Source: Terrimesophilobacter mesophilus
Lineage (GTDB): Bacteria; Actinomycetota; Actinomycetes; Actinomycetales; Microbacteriaceae
Direction: 5' to 3'
Length of the DNA stretch: 64,000 bases
Assembly (NCBI RefSeq): GCF_014200375.1
Contig: NZ_JACHBP010000001.1
Span: forward strand, 2,294,001-2,358,000
Within the stretch, counting starts at the first letter, position 1; each line of letters begins with the position of its first letter. Below, piece after piece: positions 7,821-22,861 of the stretch. The translations under genes and the position numbers were made by a program. The notes under the pieces were generated by a model, which saw only the letters and a program-made list of their open reading frames with translations, did no database searches and was not told where the DNA came from.

Positions 7821-8716
7821 CATGCAGGTATTGCGGCACCACGTTGCCGCCGGGGGCGATGTTCTGCGGCGAGTGCGGTCGCGCGGTCACGACTCCTGCT
7901 GCGCCGGCTGCGCAATCCATGATTCCCTCTCCACTCACGAGGTCCGTCGCCGAGCCGGAGCCGTGGATGAACGCCTCCGCAGGCGGGTCGGCGAGCATCG
8001 TGTGCGAGCAGTGCGGTGCGCCGGTCCTGCCGGATGACATCTTCTGCGGAGAGTGCGGTTTCGTGGTGCGCGCAGCTGCCCCCGGAGCCGGCCCGCTCGG
8101 CAACGACAGGCCCGGCGACGACAGGCCACGGGACACGAACTCGGTGGAGCGGCTCGAAGAGGTGGCCGGCGACGATCCCGCGGGCCCGGAACATCAGGAG
8201 AGTCCGGCAGAAGAGGCAAGCCCAGACGAGGACATCCCAGTCGAGGCAAGCCCGGTCGAGAACAGCCCAGATGACGACAGCCCAGTCGAGGCAAGCCCAG
8301 TCGAGGCAAGCCCGGTCGACGACAGCCCAGACGAGGACAGCCCAGACGAGGACATCGAGCCGACGCGAATCGTGTCCCGCCCGATCGAGGGCGAGCGGTT
8401 CGTCCTGCAGTTCAGTACGGGGGAATCGTTCACCGTCTACGGATCCGGGCTCGTCGGTCGAAGCCCTCGGCCGGAGCCGGGTGAGTTCTTCGACCAACTG
8501 GTCCGAGTGGTGGATTCGAGTCGATCGGTGTCGAAGACGCACCTCGAGTTCGGCCAGGACGGCGGCAGTTTCTGGGTCAAGGATCGATTCTCCGGGAACG
8601 GCACGATCGTGCGGGAACCCGATTCTGCGCCCATCCGCTGCCATCCGGACCGTCGGTATCGCCTGGTACGCGGGTCGCGGGTCGACCTGGGGGAACAGTT
8701 CTTCATCGTGAGCTGA
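7817..8716 (+). CDS. Double zinc-ribbon protein with FHA domain
   Basis: This 299-residue protein overlaps the preceding stop by ATGA. Two CxxC...CxxC zinc ribbons occupy about residues 3-22 and 62-80. A long acidic linker built of SP-containing pentapeptides follows (about residues 128-180). The C-terminus is an FHA phosphothreonine-binding domain with GLVGRSP near 211, SKTH near 238 and a SGNGT loop. The linker probably acts as a flexible spacer. FHA domains usually read phosphothreonine written by a Ser/Thr kinase, yet no kinase or PP2C phosphatase is adjacent, so the writer would have to be encoded elsewhere. The FHA reading is firm; its ligand is unknown. Confidence 0.9.
   Translation: MTCRYCGTTLPPGAMFCGECGRAVTTPAAPAAQSMIPSPLTRSVAEPEPWMNASAGGSASIVCEQCGAPVLPDDIFCGECGFVVRAAAPGAGPLGNDRPGDDRPRDTNSVERLEEVAGDDPAGPEHQESPAEEASPDEDIPVEASPVENSPDDDSPVEASPVEASPVDDSPDEDSPDEDIEPTRIVSRPIEGERFVLQFSTGESFTVYGSGLVGRSPRPEPGEFFDQLVRVVDSSRSVSKTHLEFGQDGGSFWVKDRFSGNGTIVREPDSAPIRCHPDRRYRLVRGSRVDLGEQFFIVS
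8216..8350 (+). repeat. In-frame 15-bp tandem repeat (nine units) in the FHA protein linker
   Basis: Nine consecutive 15-bp units of the type AGCCCAGTCGAGGCA encode pentapeptides such as ASPVE, DSPDE and NSPDD. Units differ by a few bases, and a partial unit precedes them. The period keeps the frame, so unit gain or loss by slippage would only change linker length. Confidence 0.9.
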
Positions 8717-8815
8717 CGGCGGAGTCTTCTCCCTGACTGTGCGGCGTCCCGCTGATTATCCACCCTCGCATCCGAGCGGCGCGCGCTGTCTGCCTGGGGA
8801 TGGTGTGCTCGAGGT

Positions 8816-11677
8816 GTGACGAGCCAGGACCTGACGATCACCCTTCCGCGCCCGCCGAAGGAATCGCCGCGCGCACCGTTTCCTGTGCTGGCCTCGCTCG
8901 CGCCCGTTGCCGCATCCCTAGCCCTGTGGGCGATCACCCGGTCTGCGTTCGCGATGGTGTTCGCCCTGCTCGGGCCGGTCATCGCGCTCGCAGGTCTCGG
9001 CGACGCGCGGCGTCGGTCCCGTCGGGAGGCGAGGAGGGAGCGTGCACGATTCGAGCGAGAAGTCGTCGCGACGGTTCGCGCCATCGACGACGCGCACGCG
9101 CGTGAGCGGGAGGCGCTGGATGCCGCGGCACCGGGTGCGATCACCGTGGCGACGTCGCGGGGCCGATCGGAGTGGTGGCGGGGGACGGTCGGCGGTGGAG
9201 TGCCGGTCCGCGTCGGACTCGGATCCGTGCCGAGCCGTATCGACCTTCAGCCACGTGGTGAGGAGTGGATCGATGACGCTCCAGGCGGCTCCGCCCACCA
9301 TGAGACCGACCGGCACGTGCTCGCCCTTCGCCGGCTTCGAGAGCGTGCCGGCTTCCTGCCGGGGGCGCCCATCGTGATCGATGCGCGCCCCGGAATCGGG
9401 ATCTGCGGCTCGGGGGCCGAGGCGATCGCCTGCGCGTCGGCGATCGTCCTCCAGATCTCCTGTCTCCTGTCGCCGGACGACGTCGAGCTCTGGATCCCGT
9501 CGAACCCTCCTCCCGGGCTCGACTGGATCCGTGGCCTGCCGCATGCCCGTCATGCTCCGTCGACGACAGTCGACGATCCCGGCGGCCTGCACATCGAGTT
9601 CCACTCCTCCGAGCCGGCCGCACGCATCCACCTCGCGATTGCCGCCGACGAGAGGGCTCTGCCTCGCGAGTGCAGAGTGATCCTGCGAATCCGGGGGAGG
9701 GCGGGGCGCATCATCCGGCATCCCGATCGACTGGACGTCGGGACCTTCGCCCCCGACTTCGTGTCGGATCGCCAGGCGCGCCAGGCCGCGGCATCCCTCT
9801 CCACCGCACACCTCGGGGCCGTCACGTCGCGACCCGCGATTCCGGGGCTCGTGAGACTGGGGGACTTCGAGCAGCAGGTTCGCACCGACGGAAGGTCGCT
9901 CCAGGCGATCGTCGGGCGCGACTCGAACGGCCCCGTGGTCATCGACCTCGTCCGCGACGGGCCGCATGCGGTCGTCGGGGGCACGACGGGGAGCGGCAAG
10001 AGCGAACTGCTCGTGACCTGGATCCTCGCTCTCGCGGCCGGATACGACCCGACGCAGGTTAACTTCCTGCTGGTGGACTTCAAGGGCGGCGCGGCCTTCG
10101 CCCCGATCGCGAGCCTCCCTCACACGGTCGGGGTCATGACCGACCTGGATGCGAGCGCGGCGGGACGGGCGATCGCGAGCCTCGGCGCCGAACTGCGACG
10201 GCGAGAGCGCGTACTCGCGTCGAACGCCGTGCGTTCCGTCGGGGAACTCGCTGAGGATGCGGCCATTCCCTCCCTCGTGATCGTCGTCGATGAGTTCGCG
10301 GCCATGATGTCGGAGCTTCGCGACCTGCACGATCTCTTCAGCGACCTGGCCGCGCGCGGCCGTTCACTCGGGATCCACCTCATCCTGTGCACCCAGCGGC
10401 CGGCGGGCGCGATCTCGGAATCCATCCTGGCGAACTGCGGGCTCCGGGTGGCCCTTCGAGTCAACAACGCGTCGGACAGCATCGCCATCATCGGTTCGGC
10501 GGATGCCGCGACGTTGCCGCAGAGCCCATCGGGTCGCGGGCTCATCGCGCATGCCGGCGGTCCTCCCGGACTCGTGCAGTGGGCGATCTCGGACGCGGCG
10601 GACGTGTCCAGCATCCTGAGCAGGAACGAGCATCGCGCCTGGGCTCCGCATCGACCATGGCTGGACCCGCTCCCGCTCGTCCTCTCCGAGTCCGACGTGC
10701 CCGTCACCGCGCATCCGTCGATCTCCTTCGGTCTCGTGGATATCCCTCACGAACAGCGTCGAGATGTCGCGACCTTCACACCGTCGACGGATGGGAACCT
10801 CGTCGTGTTCGGCGGCCACGAGAGCGGCAAGTCGACGGCGCTCGCCGCGCTCGCCCGTTCCGCGTCCAGCGTCGTCGTCATCCCTCCGTGCATCGAGGGC
10901 GCATGGGATGCGGTCTCCGCCGCACTCGAATCCACGCGGAGAGGGCACGGCCCCGCCCTCGTTCTCCTCGACGATGTCGAGTCGGTGATCGGTCGATTCG
11001 GCCCGGACCACGAGACCGCATTCATCGACATGCTCACGGCGATCGCGAGGGAGGGTCCGCGCTCCGGAACCGCCCTGGTCATCACGGCGGGTTCGCCTCG
11101 AGGGCGCTGCCAGTCCCTCGTGTCGTTGTGCGAGTCCACGCTTCTGTTGAGGATGCCGAGCCGCCAGGATCACGTGCTCGCCGGCGGAGCGGCTTCGGAC
11201 TTCGTCGCCGACCTGGCAGCGGGAGGCGGCCGGTGGAAGGGGCTCACGGTCCAGGTCGTCGCGACCGGGACACTCGCCCAGGAGTCCCCACCGGCCGCCC
11301 CCGTGCTCGAACTGCCGGCCGGAGGCACCTGCATCGTGGTGTCGCAGCGTCCGGGCGCTCTCCGGAACCGGCTCGAGCGGATCGGGCAGGTCCGTGTCCT
11401 CGAACACTCGACGCGCCCGTCGTTCGACGACGCGGGCAGCGCCACCGCCGGCTCGCCGCCCGCCATCTTCGTGGCGGACGCCGACACGTGGCAGTCCTCG
11501 TGGAGTGTGCTGGCCTCCCTCAAGACCCGCTCGCAGCTCGTGTTTCACGAGTGCTGCGCATCGGACTTCCGACTGCTCACCCGGTCACGACAGGTCCTCC
11601 TGCCCACCGACCCGTCCGCGGACACGGTCGTCGTCCTCCAGCCTGACGGCCGGATGTCCCGGGCGATGCTGCCCTGA
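8816..11677 (+). CDS. FtsK/SpoIIIE (EccC-like) two-domain ATPase
   Basis: This 953-residue membrane-anchored protein carries two hydrophobic stretches near residues 25-60. Its first FtsK/SpoIIIE ATPase domain has Walker [10 protein letters not shown] near 390-398, DFKGGAAF, and [10 protein letters not shown] as Walker B. A second, weaker ATPase module has GGHESGKST near 666-674 and LVLLDD. The architecture is that of type VII secretion motor EccC rather than a DNA-translocating FtsK, which would have one motor and a gamma domain. No WXG100 substrate, EccB, EccD or mycosin gene is in the window. A 99-bp gap separates it from the FHA gene. GTG at 8816 is taken as the start; no strong ribosome site is visible. 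Confidence 0.9.
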
Positions 11678-13086: not shown

Positions 13087-14301
13087 ATGACCAAGCCACT
13101 GCCCGAAGATCCGTTCATTCGCAGCCTCGTCCTGCAGGCCCAGCGTGCGCAGTTCTCACGCCGAAACATCCTCAAGGGCGCGGGGATCGGGGCCGGCGCC
13201 CTGGCGCTCGCTGCGTGTTCCCCCGGTGGCGGTGGTGAAGACAAGCCCAAGGCCGCCAAAGACATCTCGGACACCGACAAGACGGTGCGCTGGGACAACT
13301 GGGCGCTGTATCTCGACGTGGACGACAACGGCCACTACCCGACTCTCGAGGCGTTCGAGAAGCAGTCCGGCATCAAGGCCACCTACACCGAGGCCGTCGA
13401 CGACAACAACACCTACTACGGCAAGGTCAAGGACCAGTTGAAGCTGGGCCAGGACATCGGTTGCGACACCGTGTGCCTCACCGACTGGATGGTGGACCGC
13501 TGGATCCGCTTCGGATATACACAGGAGTTCGACTACTCGCAGATCCCCAACGCCAAGAACCTCGTTCCTGCGCTCAAGGACGTGGACTTCGACCCCGGAC
13601 GCAAGATGTCTCTGCCCTGGCAGGGCGGGTTCGCCGGAATCGCGTGGAACAAGGACCAGCTTCCCGGAGGCCTCACCTCGGTCTCCGACCTGTGGGACTC
13701 CTCGCTCAAGGGCCGCGTCGGCGTGCTGTCGGAGATGCGGGACACCATGGGCTGCATCATGCAGGATCTCGGGACCACGATCGACGGCAAGTGGGGCGAC
13801 GACGATTTCAGCGCCGCGATCGACGTGCTGAAGAAGCAGGTCGACGACGGCCAGATCCGCAACATCAAGGGCAACTCCTATAAGGAGGACCTGCAGAACG
13901 GCGACACGCTCGCCGCCATCGTCTGGTCCGGCGACATCACCCAGCTGAACTTCGAGGCCGGTGACCACTGGGCGTTCGCGCTTCCGAGCAAGGGCGGCAC
14001 GCTGTGGAACGACAACTTCCTCATCCCGATCGGATCCCAGCACAAGAAGAACGCTGAGGCTCTCATCAACTACTACTACGACCCCGAGGTCGCAGCACAG
14101 GTCGCCGCATACGTGAACTACATTCCGCCGGTGGCCGGGACCAAGGAAGCGATGATGGCGCTCGACCCGTCGCTCGCCGACGACCAGCTGATCTTCCCGA
14201 ATGAGGCGACCCTGGCGAATGCCCACGTGTTCCGCAGCTTGAGCTCTGACGAGGACCAGCGCTACAACGCGCAGTTCCAGGCGATCCTCCTCGGAGTCTG
14301 A
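13087..14301 (+). CDS. potD: Polyamine-type ABC transporter substrate-binding lipoprotein
   Basis: This 404-residue protein has a twin-arginine signal (SRRNILKGAG, residues about 22-31) followed by a hydrophobic core and a lipobox LAAC, so it is probably exported folded and lipid-anchored on the outer face. The mature part is a PotD/PotF-type solute-binding protein for spermidine or putrescine. It opens a tight importer operon with ATPase and two permeases. Two further paralogues lie at 18796 and 19995. The exact ligand cannot be read from the sequence. The start is supported by AGGAG upstream. Confidence 0.93.
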   Translation: MTKPLPEDPFIRSLVLQAQRAQFSRRNILKGAGIGAGALALAACSPGGGGEDKPKAAKDISDTDKTVRWDNWALYLDVDDNGHYPTLEAFEKQSGIKATYTEAVDDNNTYYGKVKDQLKLGQDIGCDTVCLTDWMVDRWIRFGYTQEFDYSQIPNAKNLVPALKDVDFDPGRKMSLPWQGGFAGIAWNKDQLPGGLTSVSDLWDSSLKGRVGVLSEMRDTMGCIMQDLGTTIDGKWGDDDFSAAIDVLKKQVDDGQIRNIKGNSYKEDLQNGDTLAAIVWSGDITQLNFEAGDHWAFALPSKGGTLWNDNFLIPIGSQHKKNAEALINYYYDPEVAAQVAAYVNYIPPVAGTKEAMMALDPSLADDQLIFPNEATLANAHVFRSLSSDEDQRYNAQFQAILLGV

Positions 14302-14302
14302 G

Positions 14303-15502
14303 GTGGCATCCGGGGCCTTTGCCGAAAGCGGTGCAGATCTCGAACTGGTGGGGATCCAAAAGCGATTCCCCGGCTTCACCGCGATCGAACACCTGGATCT
14401 CACGATTCCCGCCGGGTCGTTCTTCGCGCTCCTCGGCCCGTCGGGGTGCGGAAAGACGACCACCCTGCGGCTCGTCGCCGGGCTCGAGGACCCGACGGAG
14501 GGGAAGATCCTGATCGGTGGGAAGGACGTCACGAACCTGAAGCCGTACCAGCGGCAGGTGAACACCGTGTTCCAGAGCTACGCGCTCTTCCCGCACATGA
14601 CGGTGCTCGAAAACGTCGCGTTCGGGTTGCGTCGGCGCAGGATCGACGACGCCGTGGGCAAGGCGCACGAGGCGCTCCGGCTCGTCGAGCTGGATCATCT
14701 CTCCGCCCGCAAGCCGCAGCAGCTGTCCGGAGGGCAGCAGCAGCGGGTCGCCCTCGCGAGAGCGATCGTGAACCGCCCGGCGCTCCTGCTCCTCGATGAG
14801 CCGTTGGGCGCGCTCGACCTGAAGCTGCGCCGGCAGATGCAGCTCGAGCTGAAGTCGATCCAGGAAGAGGTCGGACTCACCTTCGTCCACGTCACGCACG
14901 ATCAGGAAGAGGCCATGACCATGGCCGACACGGTCGCCGTCATGAACAAGGGCGAGATCGAGCAGCTCGGCGCGCCGGAGGAACTCTACGAGCTGCCGCG
15001 GACGGCGTTCGTGGCGAACTTCCTCGGTCAGTCGAACCTGTTCACCGGTCATGTCTCGGGGTCGACGAGTTCGAGCATCAGCGTGGATGTCGAAGGAACG
15101 AAGATCACGGTGCCGACCAAGCGTGCGCAGCGCCACAAGGGCGAGGTCACGGTCGGGGTCCGCCCGGAGAAACTTCACCTCCACAAGGACGCCCCGAAGA
15201 AGAGTCCGGACATCAACACGCTCGGCCCCGGACGCATCATCGACGTCTCGTTCAGCGGGGTGAGCACGCAGTATATGATCGCGATCCCCGGTATCGGCAC
15301 TGTGTCGGTGTTCCAGCAGAACATGACATTCGGCCCGCTCGCCGGTGAAGGCGCCGAAGTGTGGGTGAGCTGGAATGTCGATCACGGATTCGGACTCGAG
15401 GACGAACCATCCCCGACGCCCCGGTTCCCGGCTGACACCGACACGGCGACGATCGCAGTGCAGAAGAAGCGTGCCCTGATGTCGGAGCTCGAGGAGGCCT
15501 GA
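14303..15502 (+). CDS. potA: Polyamine-type ABC transporter ATP-binding protein
   Basis: This 399-residue ATPase energises the PotBC-type permeases. Walker A (GPSGCGKTTT) is near residue 47, the Q-loop follows, the ABC signature is LSGGQQQR, Walker B is LLLLDEPLGALD, and the switch His is in VTHDQEEA. The C-terminal extension is a TOBE domain, normal for the spermidine/putrescine class. The GTG start lies one base after the binding-protein stop, with GGAG at 14293-14296. Confidence 0.95.
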   Translation: MASGAFAESGADLELVGIQKRFPGFTAIEHLDLTIPAGSFFALLGPSGCGKTTTLRLVAGLEDPTEGKILIGGKDVTNLKPYQRQVNTVFQSYALFPHMTVLENVAFGLRRRRIDDAVGKAHEALRLVELDHLSARKPQQLSGGQQQRVALARAIVNRPALLLLDEPLGALDLKLRRQMQLELKSIQEEVGLTFVHVTHDQEEAMTMADTVAVMNKGEIEQLGAPEELYELPRTAFVANFLGQSNLFTGHVSGSTSSSISVDVEGTKITVPTKRAQRHKGEVTVGVRPEKLHLHKDAPKKSPDINTLGPGRIIDVSFSGVSTQYMIAIPGIGTVSVFQQNMTFGPLAGEGAEVWVSWNVDHGFGLEDEPSPTPRFPADTDTATIAVQKKRALMSELEEA

Positions 15503-15504
15503 CC

Positions 15505-16416
15505 ATGGCCTTCAGCGCATTCGCGACGGGCACCGCGCAAGAGCAGGCTCCGCGGCGGAAGAGCAAGATCGCCCTGCTCCTCCTGCTGCCGGGCATCCTC
15601 TACCTGATGCTGTTCTTCCTCGTTCCGCTCGTGTCGCTCGTCATCACCTCGTTCCAGGCGCCGGTGCCCTACGGCGACATCGGGGAGTTCCAGACGGCGT
15701 TCAAGTGGCAGAACTACGTCGACGTCGTGAACACGTATGGCGAACACATCCTCCGCTCCTTCGGATACGCGATTCTCGCCACGATCTTCGCGCTGCTGTT
15801 CAGCTACCCGCTCGCGTATTTCATCGGAGTGAAGGCGCGACGCTGGCCGCTCCTGCAGAACCTCATGCTCGTCCTCGTGATAGCGCCGTTCTTCATCAGC
15901 TTCCTGCTGCGCACACTCGCCTGGAAGTCGATCCTCTCCGATGAGTCATTCGTGATCAGCGGGCTCAAGGCGCTCTCCCTCATGGCGCCGGATGCCCATT
16001 TCACCGGCACGGCCGCCGCGGTCGTGTTCGGACTCACCTACAACTTCATCCCGTTCATGACCCTGCCGCTGTACTCCAACCTCCAGCAACTGGACACGCG
16101 GCTTCTCGAGGCCGGAAGCGACCTCTACTCGACGCCGTCGAAGACCTTCTTCAAGGTCACCGTGCCGCTGTCGATGACCGGAATCGTCTCGGGAGTGCTG
16201 CTGACGTTCATCCCGGCCGCAGGCGACTACATCAACGCGAGCCGCGACTTCCTGGGAGGCACGGGCACCGCCATGATCGGGAACGTGATCGAGAGCAACT
16301 TCCTCGTGACTCTGAACTATCCGGTCGCCGCCGCCCTCTCGATCATCCTCATGGCAGTGATCCTCGTCATGGTCACCGTGTACGTCAAACGGAGTGGAAC
16401 GGAGGACCTGCTGTGA
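15505..16416 (+). CDS. potB: Polyamine-type ABC transporter permease 1
   Basis: This 303-residue inner-membrane protein has about six transmembrane helices and the binding-protein-dependent permease fold. The EAA-type cytoplasmic loop that contacts the ATPase is visible as LLEAGSDLYSTPSKTF. It begins two bases after potA with a GAGGAGG ribosome site, and ends overlapping the second permease. It pairs with the next gene to form the channel. Confidence 0.93.
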   Translation: MAFSAFATGTAQEQAPRRKSKIALLLLLPGILYLMLFFLVPLVSLVITSFQAPVPYGDIGEFQTAFKWQNYVDVVNTYGEHILRSFGYAILATIFALLFSYPLAYFIGVKARRWPLLQNLMLVLVIAPFFISFLLRTLAWKSILSDESFVISGLKALSLMAPDAHFTGTAAAVVFGLTYNFIPFMTLPLYSNLQQLDTRLLEAGSDLYSTPSKTFFKVTVPLSMTGIVSGVLLTFIPAAGDYINASRDFLGGTGTAMIGNVIESNFLVTLNYPVAAALSIILMAVILVMVTVYVKRSGTEDLL

Positions 16417-17282
16417 CACTCCAGGAAGGCCGCGTCGTCAGCAGGGCGGTGACCCGGCCGGCTCCTCCCAGCCGCAGGGGCGCGCGACTGGGCGTCGGGA
16501 AATGGGTTCTGCCGATCTATGCGGCGATCGCGTTCGTGTTCCTGCTCATCCCGATCGCGTACACCTTCGTGTTCTCCTTCAACGACTCGGTCAAGTCGAA
16601 CATCGTCTGGCGCGGGTTCACCTTCGACAAGTGGCTCAACGTCTGCGACCAGATCGATGTGTGTGTCGCGTTCGGGAACAGTCTCATCATCGGCATCACG
16701 GCGACGATCGCTGCGACGATCCTCGGCACCATGATCGCGATCGCCCTCGTGAGGTATCGGTTCCGCTTCCGTTCCGCGATCAGCCTGCTCCTGTTCCTCC
16801 CGATGGCGACGCCGGAGGTCGTGCTCGGCGCAGGACTTGCAGCAGAATTCCTCGGCGCAGGAGTGCAGAAGGGCCTCGGGACGATCATCATCGCCCACAC
16901 CATGTTCTGCGTGAGCTTCGTCGTCGTCACGGTCAAGGCACGAGTCTCGACTCTCGACCCCGCGCTCGAAGAGGCGGGAAGGGACCTGTACGGCTCGCCG
17001 AACCAGGTGTTCTGGCGGGTGACGTTCCCGCTCCTGCTTCCCGGCATCATCGCGGCGGCCCTGCTCTCGTTCGCTCTGAGCTTCGATGACTTCATCATCA
17101 CGAACTTCAATGCGGGAACGACGAGCACCTTCCCGAAGTACATCTACATCTCCGCTGCGCGTGGAATCCCCGCAGAAGCGAACGTCATCGCCTCCGCGGT
17201 GTTCTTCCTCGCCATCATTCTCGTACTGGCCGCCCAGATCTCCTCGGCGGTGAAGCGCAAGCGGCTCGCGAAGGTCGGATGA
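16413..17282 (+). CDS. potC: Polyamine-type ABC transporter permease 2
   Basis: This 289-residue partner permease has about six membrane helices after a short basic N-terminus. Its EAA loop reads LEEAGRDLYGSPNQVF. The GTG start overlaps the previous stop as GTGA, a sign of translational coupling. Together with PotA and PotB it completes a single importer that three binding proteins in this window could feed. Confidence 0.93.
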   Translation: MTLQEGRVVSRAVTRPAPPSRRGARLGVGKWVLPIYAAIAFVFLLIPIAYTFVFSFNDSVKSNIVWRGFTFDKWLNVCDQIDVCVAFGNSLIIGITATIAATILGTMIAIALVRYRFRFRSAISLLLFLPMATPEVVLGAGLAAEFLGAGVQKGLGTIIIAHTMFCVSFVVVTVKARVSTLDPALEEAGRDLYGSPNQVFWRVTFPLLLPGIIAAALLSFALSFDDFIITNFNAGTTSTFPKYIYISAARGIPAEANVIASAVFFLAIILVLAAQISSAVKRKRLAKVG

Positions 17283-17304: not shown

Positions 17305-18663
17305 ATGACCGGGTACCGGGATCGCGAGAGGCTCGCAGAACTGTGGTCCGCCGAGGTGGACCTGTTCCGCGCTGCCCGGCCGGAATCCGAGAAGCTGTGG
17401 CGGGCCGCGACACGGCATCTTCCGGATGGCGTTCCCATGCTGTGGATGGCGAAATGGCCCGGCCCCTGGCCGGTGTACGTCCGCAGCGCACTCGGAGCGC
17501 ACTTCACCGATGTGGACGGGATCGACCACGTCGATCTCTGCCTCGGCGACACGGGCGCGATGTGCGGTCACGCGCCGGCAGCATCCGTTCGAGCCATCTC
17601 CGAACAGCTCGCGAAGGGCTCGACCTTCATGCTGCCGACCGAGGATGCGGCGGTCGCCGCGGAGCTGCTGACCGAGCGGTTCGGCGTGCCGAGCTGGCAG
17701 TTCACCCTCTCGGCGACGGACGCCAACCGGAGCCTCATCCGGTACGCGCGACAGGTGACCGGCCGCCGGAAGATCCTCGTCCACGACTACTGCTACCACG
17801 GCTCCGTCGACGAGGCCTTCGCGACCCTCGACGACACCGGGGCGGTCGTCGAGCGCCGTGGGAACATCGGCGCGCCGGTGCCTCCGTCCGAGACGACGAT
17901 GGTGGTTCCGTTCAATGACGTCGCCGCTCTCGAGGCCGCACTGTCGACGGGCGAGGTCGCGGCGATGCTCATCGAGCCCGCCCTCACGAACATCGGAATC
18001 GTTCTGCCCGATGACGGCTATCACGACGCGGTTCGCGAACTGTGCACGAGGTTCGGCGTCATCCTCATCATCGATGAGACCCACACGATCAGCGCCGGCC
18101 CCGGCGGCATGACGACGACCTGGGGGTTGTCCCCGGATGCGGTCGTCGTCGGCAAGAGCATCGGCGGCGGGATACCGGCGGGTGCGTTCGGCATGTCGGC
18201 CGAGCTCGCCGAACGAGCACGGCGCAGCCTCGAGCTCGAGGACATCGATGTCGGGGGAGTCGGTGGGACCCTCGCAGGAAACGCACTGTCGCTCGCCGGA
18301 GTGAGGGCGACGCTCTCCGAGGTGCTCACGGCCGACGCGTTCGTGGGTATGACGGCACGGGCGACCGAGTGGACGGCCGGCGTCCAGGCGGTGCTCGACG
18401 AGTTCGCCGTGCCATGGCAGGTCACTCAGCTGGGTGCCCGCGCGGAGTACAGCTTCCGCGCGACACCGCCGCGCGATGGCGCGGAGGCGGCCGCCGCCGA
18501 CGACTTCGAGCTGCAGCAGTACCTTCACCTGCACGCGCTCAATCGCGGCATCCTCATCACACCGTTCCACAACATGGCGCTCATGTGCCCCGTGACGACG
18601 ACGGCGGACGTCGAGCGGCACTCGCTGGCCTTCCGGGAAGCCGTGTCGAGCCTGTACGCCTGA
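17305..18663 (+). CDS. Class III PLP-dependent aminotransferase
   Basis: This 452-residue enzyme belongs to the fold-type I class III aminotransferases, near glutamate-1-semialdehyde aminomutase and omega-transaminase branches. It has the acidic pair in LIIDETHT and the Schiff-base lysine at about Lys284 in VVGKSIGGG. It begins 22 bp after the importer permeases and probably belongs to the same transcript, suggesting it deaminates an imported amine such as putrescine or a related omega-amino compound. Substrate is inference. A true haem-pathway HemL role is unlikely given the context. Confidence 0.85.
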   Translation: MTGYRDRERLAELWSAEVDLFRAARPESEKLWRAATRHLPDGVPMLWMAKWPGPWPVYVRSALGAHFTDVDGIDHVDLCLGDTGAMCGHAPAASVRAISEQLAKGSTFMLPTEDAAVAAELLTERFGVPSWQFTLSATDANRSLIRYARQVTGRRKILVHDYCYHGSVDEAFATLDDTGAVVERRGNIGAPVPPSETTMVVPFNDVAALEAALSTGEVAAMLIEPALTNIGIVLPDDGYHDAVRELCTRFGVILIIDETHTISAGPGGMTTTWGLSPDAVVVGKSIGGGIPAGAFGMSAELAERARRSLELEDIDVGGVGGTLAGNALSLAGVRATLSEVLTADAFVGMTARATEWTAGVQAVLDEFAVPWQVTQLGARAEYSFRATPPRDGAEAAAADDFELQQYLHLHALNRGILITPFHNMALMCPVTTTADVERHSLAFREAVSSLYA

Positions 18664-18795: not shown

Positions 18796-19998
18796 GTGAA
18801 ATCACACGCAACACCGTTGCCCGCACGTTCGTCGTCGGCCCGGTCTCTGGCCGGCCTCAGCCGGCGGGGTATGCTCCAGGGCGCGGGCGTCGGTGCCTCC
18901 GCGCTTCTGCTTGCCGCGTGCTCCAGCGCGCCGTCGGCCGCGCCGACCGCGGCGGTGGACAGGTCGGAGAAGCAGAAGTCGTTGCGGTTCGACAGTCGGG
19001 ATACGTATCGGAACACGACGGGTGAGGATTATCCGTTGTTGGAGAAGTTCACTGAGGCGTCGGGGATCTCGGTGACGTATTCGAGTGCTGTCAGTGATGA
19101 CAATGTGTATTACAGCAAGGTGAAGAACCAATTGAAGATGGGGCAGGACATCGGGGCGGATGCTTCGGTGTTGAGCGACTGGATGGCTGCGCGGTGGATC
19201 CGACTCGGCTACGTGCAGGACCTGAATCTCGACCGGATACCGAACCTGTCCGACATCCGATCACGGTTCGCGCTCCCGGACAACGACCCGCGCCGCAGCC
19301 TGTCGTTGCCGTGGCGCAGTGGTTTCACGGGGATCGCGTGGAACAAGGAGGAGTTGCCGGAGGGGCTGACGTCGGTGTCCGATCTGTGGGATCCGTCGCT
19401 GTCGGGCAAGGTGGGTGTGATGTCGGCGATGCGCGACACGCTGGGTCTCATCATGCTGGATGCGGGTGTCGACATCGAGGGCGCCGACTGGGGAGACTCC
19501 GAATTCACGTCGGCCGTGAACACCCTGCGCGCGCAGGTGACGGGCGGGCAGGTACGCGGAATCAAGGGCAACCAGTACAAGGAAGACCTCAAGAGCGGCA
19601 AGACGATCGCCGCAATCGCCAGGGCGGGAGACATCATGCAGATCAACGCAGAGGCCGGCGACAAGTGGGGATTCGCGATTCCCGCGAAGGGCGGCGTGCT
19701 CTGGAGCGATGTCGTCGTCATCCCGATCGGGTCGACCCACCGCAGCAACGCGGAGGACTTCATCAATTTCTACTACGACCCGATGAACGCGGTGCAGGTG
19801 GCCGCGGCGACGAACTTCATCTCCCCGGTCGACATCCGTCAGCTGGAGATCGATGTCCTCGATGAGGCGGTGTCGAGCAACCGGATGGTGTTCCCGACCC
19901 CCGTCACATTCGAGACCTCGCGCACGTTCCGGACGCTCTCGCAGGGCGAGGAACAACGGTACGGCGCCCAATACCAGACAGTGCTGCTGGCGGCATGA
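18796..19998 (+). CDS. Second polyamine-type substrate-binding lipoprotein
   Basis: This 400-residue paralogue of the protein at 13087 has a twin-arginine signal (LSRRGMLQGAG) and lipobox LAAC. I chose GTG 18796 because GGGGGAG sits about ten bases upstream and the signal peptide then has a normal length; the open frame reaches back to 18700. A 132-bp gap from the aminotransferase probably contains its own promoter; it includes a small ACCC-TTTT-GGGT hairpin at 18694-18705. Part of the gene (18886-19220) is identical to the next gene and uses atypical codons (TTG, TAT, GAT). It carries no ATPase or permease of its own. Confidence 0.9.
   Translation: MKSHATPLPARSSSARSLAGLSRRGMLQGAGVGASALLLAACSSAPSAAPTAAVDRSEKQKSLRFDSRDTYRNTTGEDYPLLEKFTEASGISVTYSSAVSDDNVYYSKVKNQLKMGQDIGADASVLSDWMAARWIRLGYVQDLNLDRIPNLSDIRSRFALPDNDPRRSLSLPWRSGFTGIAWNKEELPEGLTSVSDLWDPSLSGKVGVMSAMRDTLGLIMLDAGVDIEGADWGDSEFTSAVNTLRAQVTGGQVRGIKGNQYKEDLKSGKTIAAIARAGDIMQINAEAGDKWGFAIPAKGGVLWSDVVVIPIGSTHRSNAEDFINFYYDPMNAVQVAAATNFISPVDIRQLEIDVLDEAVSSNRMVFPTPVTFETSRTFRTLSQGEEQRYGAQYQTVLLAA
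18886..19220 (+). repeat. 335-bp direct repeat, copy 1 (inside second binding protein)
   Basis: By eye this stretch is identical base for base to 20070-20404, 1184 bp downstream, with one difference (18885 versus 20069) just before it. It encodes the end of the lipobox region and the first third of the mature protein. Codons here favour TTG, TAT, GAT, ACT and AGT, unlike the flanking sequence. A second highly similar tract covers about 19306-19483 versus 20490-20667. Confidence 0.95.
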
Positions 19999-21185
19999 TC
20001 ATGAACGAGCTGCCGATGTCTTCGATGTCCACGCATCCGCTGTCGAGGAGGACCATGCTCCAGGGCGCAGGCGTCGGTGCCTCCGCGCTTCTGCTTGCCG
20101 CGTGCTCCAGCGCGCCGTCGGCCGCGCCGACCGCGGCGGTGGACAGGTCGGAGAAGCAGAAGTCGTTGCGGTTCGACAGTCGGGATACGTATCGGAACAC
20201 GACGGGTGAGGATTATCCGTTGTTGGAGAAGTTCACTGAGGCGTCGGGGATCTCGGTGACGTATTCGAGTGCTGTCAGTGATGACAATGTGTATTACAGC
20301 AAGGTGAAGAACCAATTGAAGATGGGGCAGGACATCGGGGCGGATGCTTCGGTGTTGAGCGACTGGATGGCTGCGCGGTGGATCCGACTCGGCTACGTGC
20401 AGGAGATCGAGCGCAAGCGGATCACGAACTTCGAGAACATCCGTCTCCAGTTCCAGGACGCGTCGTATGACCCGGGGCGCAGGGCATCGTTGCCGTGGCG
20501 CAGTGGTTTCACGGGGGTCGCGTGGAACAAGGAGGAGTTGCCGGAGGGGTTGACGTCGGTGTCCGATCTGTGGGATCCGTCGCTGTCGGGCAAGGTGGGT
20601 GTGATGTCGGCGATGCGCGACACGCTGGGTCTCATCATGCTGGATGCGGGTGTCGACATCGAGGGCAAGGACTGGGGAGACGCCGAGTTCTCCAATGCCG
20701 TCAACACGCTCAGGACGCAGGTCAGCTCAGGGCAGGTCCGCAGCATCAAGGGCAACCAGTACAAGGAAGACCTCAAGAGCGGCAAGACGATCGCCGCAAT
20801 CGCGCGTGTCGGCGATGTCATGCAGATCAACGCAGAGGCCGGCGACAAGTGGGGATTCGCCATCCCGGAGAAGGGCGGAGTGCTCTGGAGCGACGTCGTC
20901 GTCATCCCGATCGGGTCGACCCACCGCAGCAACGCGGAGGACTTCATCAACTTCTACTACGACCGTTCGAACGCGGTCAAAGTCGCGGCCGCGACGAGCT
21001 TCATCTCCCCGGTCGACGTGCGGCAGCCCGAGATCGGGACCATCCCGCAGGAGCTCTCCCGCAACCTCATGATCTTCCCGAGTGAGGCGACCTTCGCCAC
21101 GACGAAGACGTTCCGGACGCTCTCGCAGGGCGAGGAGCAGCGCTACGGAGCGCAGTACCAGACGGTCCTTCTCGCCGGCGCGTAG
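19995..21185 (+). CDS. Third polyamine-type substrate-binding lipoprotein
   Basis: This 396-residue tandem paralogue overlaps the previous stop by ATGA (ATG at 19995; ATG at 20001 is an alternative). It has a twin-arginine signal (LSRRTMLQGAG) and lipobox LAAC. Differences from copy two are concentrated between the shared tracts, for example the segment after GYVQE (about 20404-20490) and the C-terminal quarter, which would alter the binding cleft while keeping the docking surfaces constant. It probably feeds the PotABC importer. Ligand unknown. Confidence 0.9.
   Translation: MIMNELPMSSMSTHPLSRRTMLQGAGVGASALLLAACSSAPSAAPTAAVDRSEKQKSLRFDSRDTYRNTTGEDYPLLEKFTEASGISVTYSSAVSDDNVYYSKVKNQLKMGQDIGADASVLSDWMAARWIRLGYVQEIERKRITNFENIRLQFQDASYDPGRRASLPWRSGFTGVAWNKEELPEGLTSVSDLWDPSLSGKVGVMSAMRDTLGLIMLDAGVDIEGKDWGDAEFSNAVNTLRTQVSSGQVRSIKGNQYKEDLKSGKTIAAIARVGDVMQINAEAGDKWGFAIPEKGGVLWSDVVVIPIGSTHRSNAEDFINFYYDRSNAVKVAAATSFISPVDVRQPEIGTIPQELSRNLMIFPSEATFATTKTFRTLSQGEEQRYGAQYQTVLLAGA
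20070..20404 (+). repeat. 335-bp direct repeat, copy 2 (inside third binding protein)
   Basis: This is the partner of 18886-19220. The absence of even synonymous differences, while the rest of the two genes has diverged, points to recent gene conversion or a recent partial duplication. Confidence 0.95.
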
Positions 21186-21220: not shown

Positions 21221-22861
21221 GTGACCCAGAATGAATGGTGGCGCTCCGCCGTCATCTACCAGGTGTACCCGCGATCCTTCTCCGACTCCGACGGCGACGG
21301 CCTCGGCGACCTCAAGGGCATCGCGAGTCGATTGCCCGCACTGCGCGACCTGGGCATCGACGCCGTGTGGCTGTCGCCGTTCTACACGTCGCCGCAGAAC
21401 GACGCAGGATACGACGTCGCAGACTATCGCGATGTCGATCCACGATTCGGCACTCTCGCAGACTTCGACGATCTGATCGCGGAGGCGCACCGGCTGAAGC
21501 TCCGGGTGATCGTGGATCTCGTTCCCAACCACACCTCAGACCAGCACTCCTGGTTCCAGGCGGCTCTTGCGGCGCCTGAGGGCAGCCCTGAGCGCGCACG
21601 ATACCTGTTTCGCGACGGCAAGGGCGCCGACGGCCATATTCCCCCGAACAACTGGGAGTCGGTCTTCGGCGGCAGGGCCTGGACGCGGGTCAACCGGCCG
21701 GATGGGACCCCCGGCCAGTGGTATCTCCACCTCTTCGACACCTCGCAGCCGGACCTCGACTGGCGCAATCCCTGGGTGCGCGAGCAGTTCCGCGGCATCC
21801 TGCGGTTCTGGCTCGACCGCGGCGTCGACGGGTTCAGGGTGGATGTCGCCCACGGGCTCATCAAGAAGGCGGGGCTTCCCGACTACACTCCGCCCAAGGG
21901 CGGCGCGAGCATGGGCGGCCACTCCAACACGCCGCCGTACTGGGCGCAGCCCGGCGTTCACGAGATCTACCGGGACTGGCGCGAACTCATCGACGAGTAC
22001 CCCGGCGACCGCGTGCTGGTCGCCGAGGCGTGGGTCAACCCGCTGTCCGAACTCGCCCACTGGGTGAGGCCGGACGAGATGCACCAGGCGTTCAACTTCC
22101 AGTACCTCGAAGCGCCGTGGGATGCCGCGGAGATCCGCACGGTGATCAAGAACTCGCTCGCAGCGTTCGGTCACGTCGGGGCGCCGAGCACGTGGGTGCT
22201 GTCCAATCACGACGTCGTCCGCCACGCGTCACGACTCGCACTCGATGGGGACAACCCCCAGGGCTCCGGGATCGGCCCGAACTCACCCGAGAAGCCGAAC
22301 CGGGTCATCGGACTCCGCAGGGCGCGCGCGGCGACACTGCTCATGCTTGCGCTGCCGGGGAGCGCGTACGTGTACCAGGGCGAGGAGCTCGGCCTCCCGG
22401 AGGACGTCGAACTCCCGGATTCCGCGCGTCAGGACCCCACCTGGTTCCGGACCGATCACGAGCGGTACGGTCGCGACGGCTGCCGGGTTCCGATCCCATG
22501 GGAGGCCGTGGCTCCGGCGTACGGGTTCAGCAACACGGGCAAGAGCTGGCTTCCGCAGCCGTCGGACTGGGCCGGATACGCGCGGGACTCGCAGGGCGGC
22601 GTGGCAGGATCCACGCTCGAACTGTACCGCTCTGCGCTGGCACTGCGGGCGAAGCAGAACCTCGGGGAAGGTGAACTGGAGTGGCTGCGGGGCTATCCGC
22701 ACGAGGTCGTCGCGTTCCGGAACGGCGGAGTCGTGGTCATCTCCAATTTCGGGTCGGAGATCATCGCACTGCCCCGCGGAACCGTCGCACTGTCGTCCGA
22801 ACCGATCACGAGGGAACTGCCGGGCGAGACCACGGTGTGGTTGATGGACGACGGCCGGTAG
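21221..22861 (+). CDS. GH13 alpha-glucosidase (oligo-1,6-glucosidase type)
   Basis: This 546-residue cytoplasmic glycoside hydrolase family 13 enzyme probably releases glucose from short alpha-glucosides. The TIM-barrel motifs are intact: DLVPNHTS, nucleophile Asp208 in GFRVDVAHG, acid/base Glu269 in LVAEAW, and the stabilising Asp331 in SNHDVVRH. The length suits the oligo-1,6-glucosidase/sucrose isomerase group. It stands 35 bp after the binding-protein genes with no sugar transporter nearby, so it looks functionally separate from its amine-metabolism neighbours. Linkage preference is not decided. Confidence 0.92.
   Translation: MTQNEWWRSAVIYQVYPRSFSDSDGDGLGDLKGIASRLPALRDLGIDAVWLSPFYTSPQNDAGYDVADYRDVDPRFGTLADFDDLIAEAHRLKLRVIVDLVPNHTSDQHSWFQAALAAPEGSPERARYLFRDGKGADGHIPPNNWESVFGGRAWTRVNRPDGTPGQWYLHLFDTSQPDLDWRNPWVREQFRGILRFWLDRGVDGFRVDVAHGLIKKAGLPDYTPPKGGASMGGHSNTPPYWAQPGVHEIYRDWRELIDEYPGDRVLVAEAWVNPLSELAHWVRPDEMHQAFNFQYLEAPWDAAEIRTVIKNSLAAFGHVGAPSTWVLSNHDVVRHASRLALDGDNPQGSGIGPNSPEKPNRVIGLRRARAATLLMLALPGSAYVYQGEELGLPEDVELPDSARQDPTWFRTDHERYGRDGCRVPIPWEAVAPAYGFSNTGKSWLPQPSDWAGYARDSQGGVAGSTLELYRSALALRAKQNLGEGELEWLRGYPHEVVAFRNGGVVVISNFGSEIIALPRGTVALSSEPITRELPGETTVWLMDDGR

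Follow-up and report, generated by a model that had tools for sequence, protein, structure and literature searches.

Ectopic conversion between paralogues, for example between rRNA operons, homogenises sequences patchily within one genome and leaves their flanks diverged. Homologous recombination between species produces mosaic genes in which a local codon shift has sharp edges inside a single gene. The two tandem genes analysed here, A and B, share features with both. As in converted rRNA operons, they are homogenised in patches between diverged flanks; unlike those operons, they are protein-coding paralogues, old and in tandem, that are affected only in inner patches, and these patches have a foreign-looking codon style. 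As in interspecies mosaics, there is a local codon shift with sharp edges inside one gene; unlike in such mosaics, the tracts have no donor lineage that we could find and no excess divergence from congeners. We consider it very probable that ectopic gene conversion copied several patches of different age from B into A. Conversion as a process is known and mechanistically ordinary, and searching the literature for conversion between solute-binding proteins of bacteria returned nothing relevant.

For the proteins themselves, the comparison is with the polyamine-binding proteins PotD and PotF. The ligand contacts of PotD are W34, E36, Y37, S83, Y85, D168, E171, N213, W229, W255, D257 and Y293, and its docking residues are Y56, T58 and 212-222 (PMC11414716, PMC8666671). 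A and B resemble PotD and PotF in fold, in their PotABC operon, in the position of the docking segment and in the solute-binding family SBP_bac_8, which both match above the cut-off.

The window is a stretch of 64,000 nucleotides with 67% G+C, positions 2294001-2358000 of the single 2.41 Mb contig of a Microbacteriaceae species. The operon runs in the order potD1, potA, potB, potC, class III aminotransferase, A, B and GH13 glycosidase, with the following genes up to B:

13087-14301, + strand: potD1, a PotD paralogue of canonical type and a Tat lipoprotein, with pocket Trp34 and Trp229 kept
14303-15502, + strand: potA, shared ABC transporter core
15505-16416, + strand: potB, shared ABC transporter core
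16413-17282, + strand: potC, shared ABC transporter core
17305-18663, + strand: class III aminotransferase of PRK07046 type, conserved in five congeners
18796-19998, + strand: gene A, solute-binding lipoprotein, old potD2 paralogue, putative conversion recipient
19995-21185, + strand: gene B, solute-binding lipoprotein, orthologue of the congeners' single potD2, presumed donor to A

Both A and B contain a twin-arginine motif and a lipobox, read directly in the sequence as SRRxMLQG...LAAC, and B is 53% identical to potD1. We compared the locus with seven congeners (G001-G007), each represented by one genome per species. The order potA-potB-potC is kept in all seven. At the position of A and B, six of them have one gene and G001 has a pair. 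The GH13 enzyme (21221-22861 in the window) and the PRK07046-type aminotransferase lie in the pot operon of five congeners; for the aminotransferase, no match was detected at the corresponding place in G003 and G001.

The shared and unshared parts of A and B are arranged as follows:

18871-19220, + strand: tract 1 in A, identical to B from 18886 onwards, with foreign-looking codons in 18961-19200
20055-20404, + strand: tract 1 in B, exact from 20070
19219-19303, + strand: unconverted segment of A, 34% amino acid identity to B
19306-19482, + strand: tract 2 in A, foreign codon style
20490-20666, + strand: tract 2 in B
19561-19620, + strand: third shared block in A, ordinary in codon use and spanning the counterpart of PotD docking residues 212-222
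20745-20804, + strand: third shared block in B
19621-19770, + strand: older, partly homogenised block in A
19771-19920, + strand: part of A left unconverted, most similar to the tandem pair in congener G001

An earlier note on this DNA had claimed that 335 bp are identical between the two genes, and 18886-19220 indeed matches 20070-20404 exactly; allowing one mismatch, the identity of tract 1 reaches back to 18871. The second tract reported there also exists, with two mismatches in 177 bp, but it ends one base earlier than claimed. The flanks described as diverged are diverged: A and B agree at 57% of nucleotides over 19219-19303, and at 69% of nucleotides and 58% of amino acids over 19771-19920. 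Two shared blocks had escaped that note, namely 19561-19620, with one silent difference in 20 codons, and 19621-19770, with silent differences at 9 of 44 sites.

Silent divergence, for which a plot along the genes had been proposed, is far from uniform. A and B differ at none of 82 silent sites in tract 1b and at 1 of 52 in tract 2, against 29-48% (7/17, 8/28 and 11/23) in three segments beyond tract 2 that the genes do not share. Among the polymorphic silent sites, the run of 168 identical sites in tract 1 was reached in none of 10000 shuffles, and the run of 61 in tract 2 in 3% of shuffles. Exact dispersed repeats of more than 80 bp are limited, over practically the whole genome, to the 335 bp tract and a 116 bp part of tract 2. 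Apart from the A/B pair, a search with 60 bp words over practically the whole genome detected no inverted repeats, nor any exact direct repeats above 80 bp, so the genome has, as it seems, at most one rRNA operon and no multicopy insertion sequence. This almost repeat-free genome offers a clear case in which old tandem paralogues have been partly overwritten while both ends survive, so that gene trees switch within one gene. Elsewhere, L240:7911-9125 has an overlapping self-match of 695 bp at 92% identity, a tandem repeat whose units recur about every 520 bp.

The trees conflict in the way that a mosaic leads one to expect. With the tract columns, A pairs with B, and the two stand next to the congeners' B-type genes. 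With the non-tract columns, B groups with G002, G004, G005, G006 and G007 (bootstrap 97 for amino acids and 94 for nucleotides), and A falls outside and is only loosely placed. In the tree of the tail (19561-19770), A is again next to B. The tract's position fits vertical descent in the amino acid tree, its nucleotide placement being weakly supported, and the tract is as distant from the congener orthologues as the rest of B. The B protein is 77-80% identical to those of G002, G004 and G007; A is similar to these three only in the parts shared with B. Over 19771-19920, the amino acid identities of A are 50-56% to G002, G004 and G007 and 62-66% to G001a/b, the reverse of the tracts, and those of B are 86-90% to the same three and 38-40% to the G001 pair. 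The tandem potD2 pair of G001 (L135:6539-7732 and 7864-9138) was checked for a shared tract of this kind; none was detected, and its divergence is even along the genes.

The conversion that the earlier note proposed is therefore supported by the agreement of silent sites within the tracts, by the divergence of both genes at each end and by the discordance between trees. What we observe directly is that A is a mosaic, that the trees conflict and that silent divergence varies along the genes; the direction from B to A we infer from the grouping of the tracts with the congeners' B-type genes. In this history, A and B would be anciently diverged potD2 paralogues in tandem, and recombination between the neighbours would have copied patches of B into A. 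The patch at 18871-19220 would be recent, that at 19306-19482 slightly older and those further downstream older, with 19621-19770 apparently the product of an earlier event. The strongly different segments and both ends of A would have remained unconverted, leaving an old A backbone with patches of B.

A similar mosaic of identical and diverged segments would also be produced if A were a recent tandem duplicate of B in which other segments had been replaced from a diverged gene. However, the old sequence at both ends of A shows that it is no recent copy of B; since several inner segments are old as well, this history takes several replacements where two to four patches would do, and we regard it as very unlikely. 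The locus is known from the assembly alone, where reads of one copy might have been used for both over the tract. Such an error seems to us extremely unlikely, given a single contig of this length, real differences retained in tract 2, a graded divergence in the later blocks, and tract edges that lie inside the genes with unique sequence on either side.

We then consider what the patches encode. A structural model of B (pLDDT 86.7) has a PotD-type fold, with 4eqb, 7xjm, 4gl0 and 1pot as the best fold matches. The earlier note had suggested that the tracts keep the docking surfaces constant and let the ligand region differ. A and B do have the same residues at the docking equivalents, but they also agree at all 13 mapped ligand contacts; most of these contacts lie inside the shared tracts and blocks, and the 51 aligned differences between A and B lie elsewhere. 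T35 of PotD we also take to be a ligand contact; Q327 is outside the contact mapping on A and B. The overwritten part thus includes the likely ligand pocket, and duplicate binding proteins may in this way regain the same specificity after divergence. At the first pocket position, the equivalent of W34, G001 and G003 have Trp and the tract has Arg; A may therefore owe part of its pocket to conversion.

Unlike PotD and PotF, both A and B have Arg at the positions of W34 and W229, Ala at D168 and Phe at Y293; Thr stands at E36, and Y37, S83, W255 and D257 are kept. Their scores against the curated PotD equivalog, 68 and 79 bits, are far below its cut-off of 582 bits. With Arg at two aromatic positions and Ala at Asp168, both in contrast to PotD and potD1, and with scores this low, the ligand of A and B is probably not spermidine, and it perhaps carries an acidic group. 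Judging from operon position and the similarity of the docking segment to that of potD1, A and B presumably feed the PotABC encoded upstream.

The codon use of the tracts is the remaining peculiarity. The excess of TTG, TAT, GAT and AGT noticed earlier is present: in 18961-19218, five of six Leu codons are TTG (4.1% in the genome, counted with gene A included), four of six Tyr codons are TAT (18%), Asp is encoded by four GAT and four GAC (GAT 27% in the genome), and AGT occurs three times. Third-position G+T is 0.79 in 18961-19200 and 0.75 in 19306-19482, far from the genome average of 0.435 (sd 0.073, 80-codon windows), and the tract 1 value is reached by 11 of 56519 windows, those of A and B included. 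The anomaly extends less far than had been claimed. It holds for about 18961-19200 and for 19306-19482, but the roughly 90 bp at 18871-18958, the last 20 bp of tract 1 and the later shared blocks are ordinary. By overall codon score the tract, at the 4th percentile, stands out only mildly; more telling are third-position G+T and an independent codon model. Over 22% of the genome, no window reached the tracts' G+T values; over a larger part a few did, mostly in an RHS-type gene that encodes a colicin-D domain. When A and B are excluded, that RHS gene supplies all ten of the highest values listed for 80-codon windows over 69% of the genome.

The codon model was trained on the RHS/colicin-D gene alone. 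Its log-likelihood ratio is +22 for tract 1 and +7 for tract 2, below zero in almost every other part of A and B, near zero at the two short 5' ends, and -16 to -36 in the tract-equivalent parts of five congener sequences. Ranked by best 80-codon window, B comes third of 1977 genes, after the RHS gene, which is the model's training gene, and an OLD-like TOPRIM/AAA gene; unlike in these two, the rest of B is native in codon use. A local anomaly of this kind means that composition can flag parts of genes and not just whole genes, and it provides a search tag for a donor.

The search for a donor of the tract, proposed in the earlier note, was unsuccessful: 398 genomes of the family, 297 genomes of the order, plasmids and viral contigs contained none, and the nearest DNA, at 76-78% identity, is in congeners. 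The overall codon style of the tract was found in no locus examined from relatives. As to the import claimed for the tract, the style does look foreign and has its like among the genes that this genome acquired horizontally, but no donor was found and the divergence from congeners is not in excess. The anomaly itself is real. There is about an even chance, in our view, that B acquired the style first, recombining homologously with a mobile copy or with a related lineage not yet sampled, and that A then received it from B. A single import does not neatly explain the native middle segment between the foreign-style tracts, which is present in B too.

Local mutation or selection in B may instead have turned C-ending codons into G- and T-ending ones that were then passed to A, a reading of the codon anomaly only and compatible with conversion from B to A. 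We hold it to be plausible, leaning slightly against it. In its favour, the tract and the rest of B are equally diverged from congeners, and the amino acids of the tract give a tree compatible with vertical descent; against it, relative to congeners the tracts have 16 C>T and 19 C>G changes and no G>C (4, 15 and 21 in the rest of B), which simple deamination would not give, and their codon use is similar to that of the RHS/colicin-D gene and of further genes that were probably acquired. If an outside allele with G/T-ending codons had recombined separately into A and B, their identity would come from the common donor. That both genes share the two foreign-style tracts and have a native middle would suit such a donor, as would the likeness to horizontally acquired genes. 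Nevertheless, we find this improbable: no donor was found, more events are required, and 18871-18958, 19201-19218 and 19561-19620 are shared with ordinary codons, a pattern explained by A-B conversion but not by a foreign donor. Just as doubtful to us is a scenario in which an unsampled potD2 allele, either mobile or congeneric and with codon use like that of acquired genes, enters the pair again and again by homologous recombination and homogenises docking and pocket; were it so, the outer segments would be free to diverge, and the pair would form a small diversification cassette for exposed surfaces.

The RHS-type gene with the colicin-D domain lies at L219:4273-5836 on the minus strand (G000:C1 about 1324273-1325836) and has the strongest G/T-ending style in the genome; 289 bp of it recur at L115:6670-6958 with 91% identity. 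At L224:11732-15379 on the plus strand (G000:C1 about 1921732-1925379), a gene with AAA_15 and OLD-like TOPRIM domains is followed by a second gene, both with codon use of the acquired type, and the two are possibly a Gabija-like defence pair.
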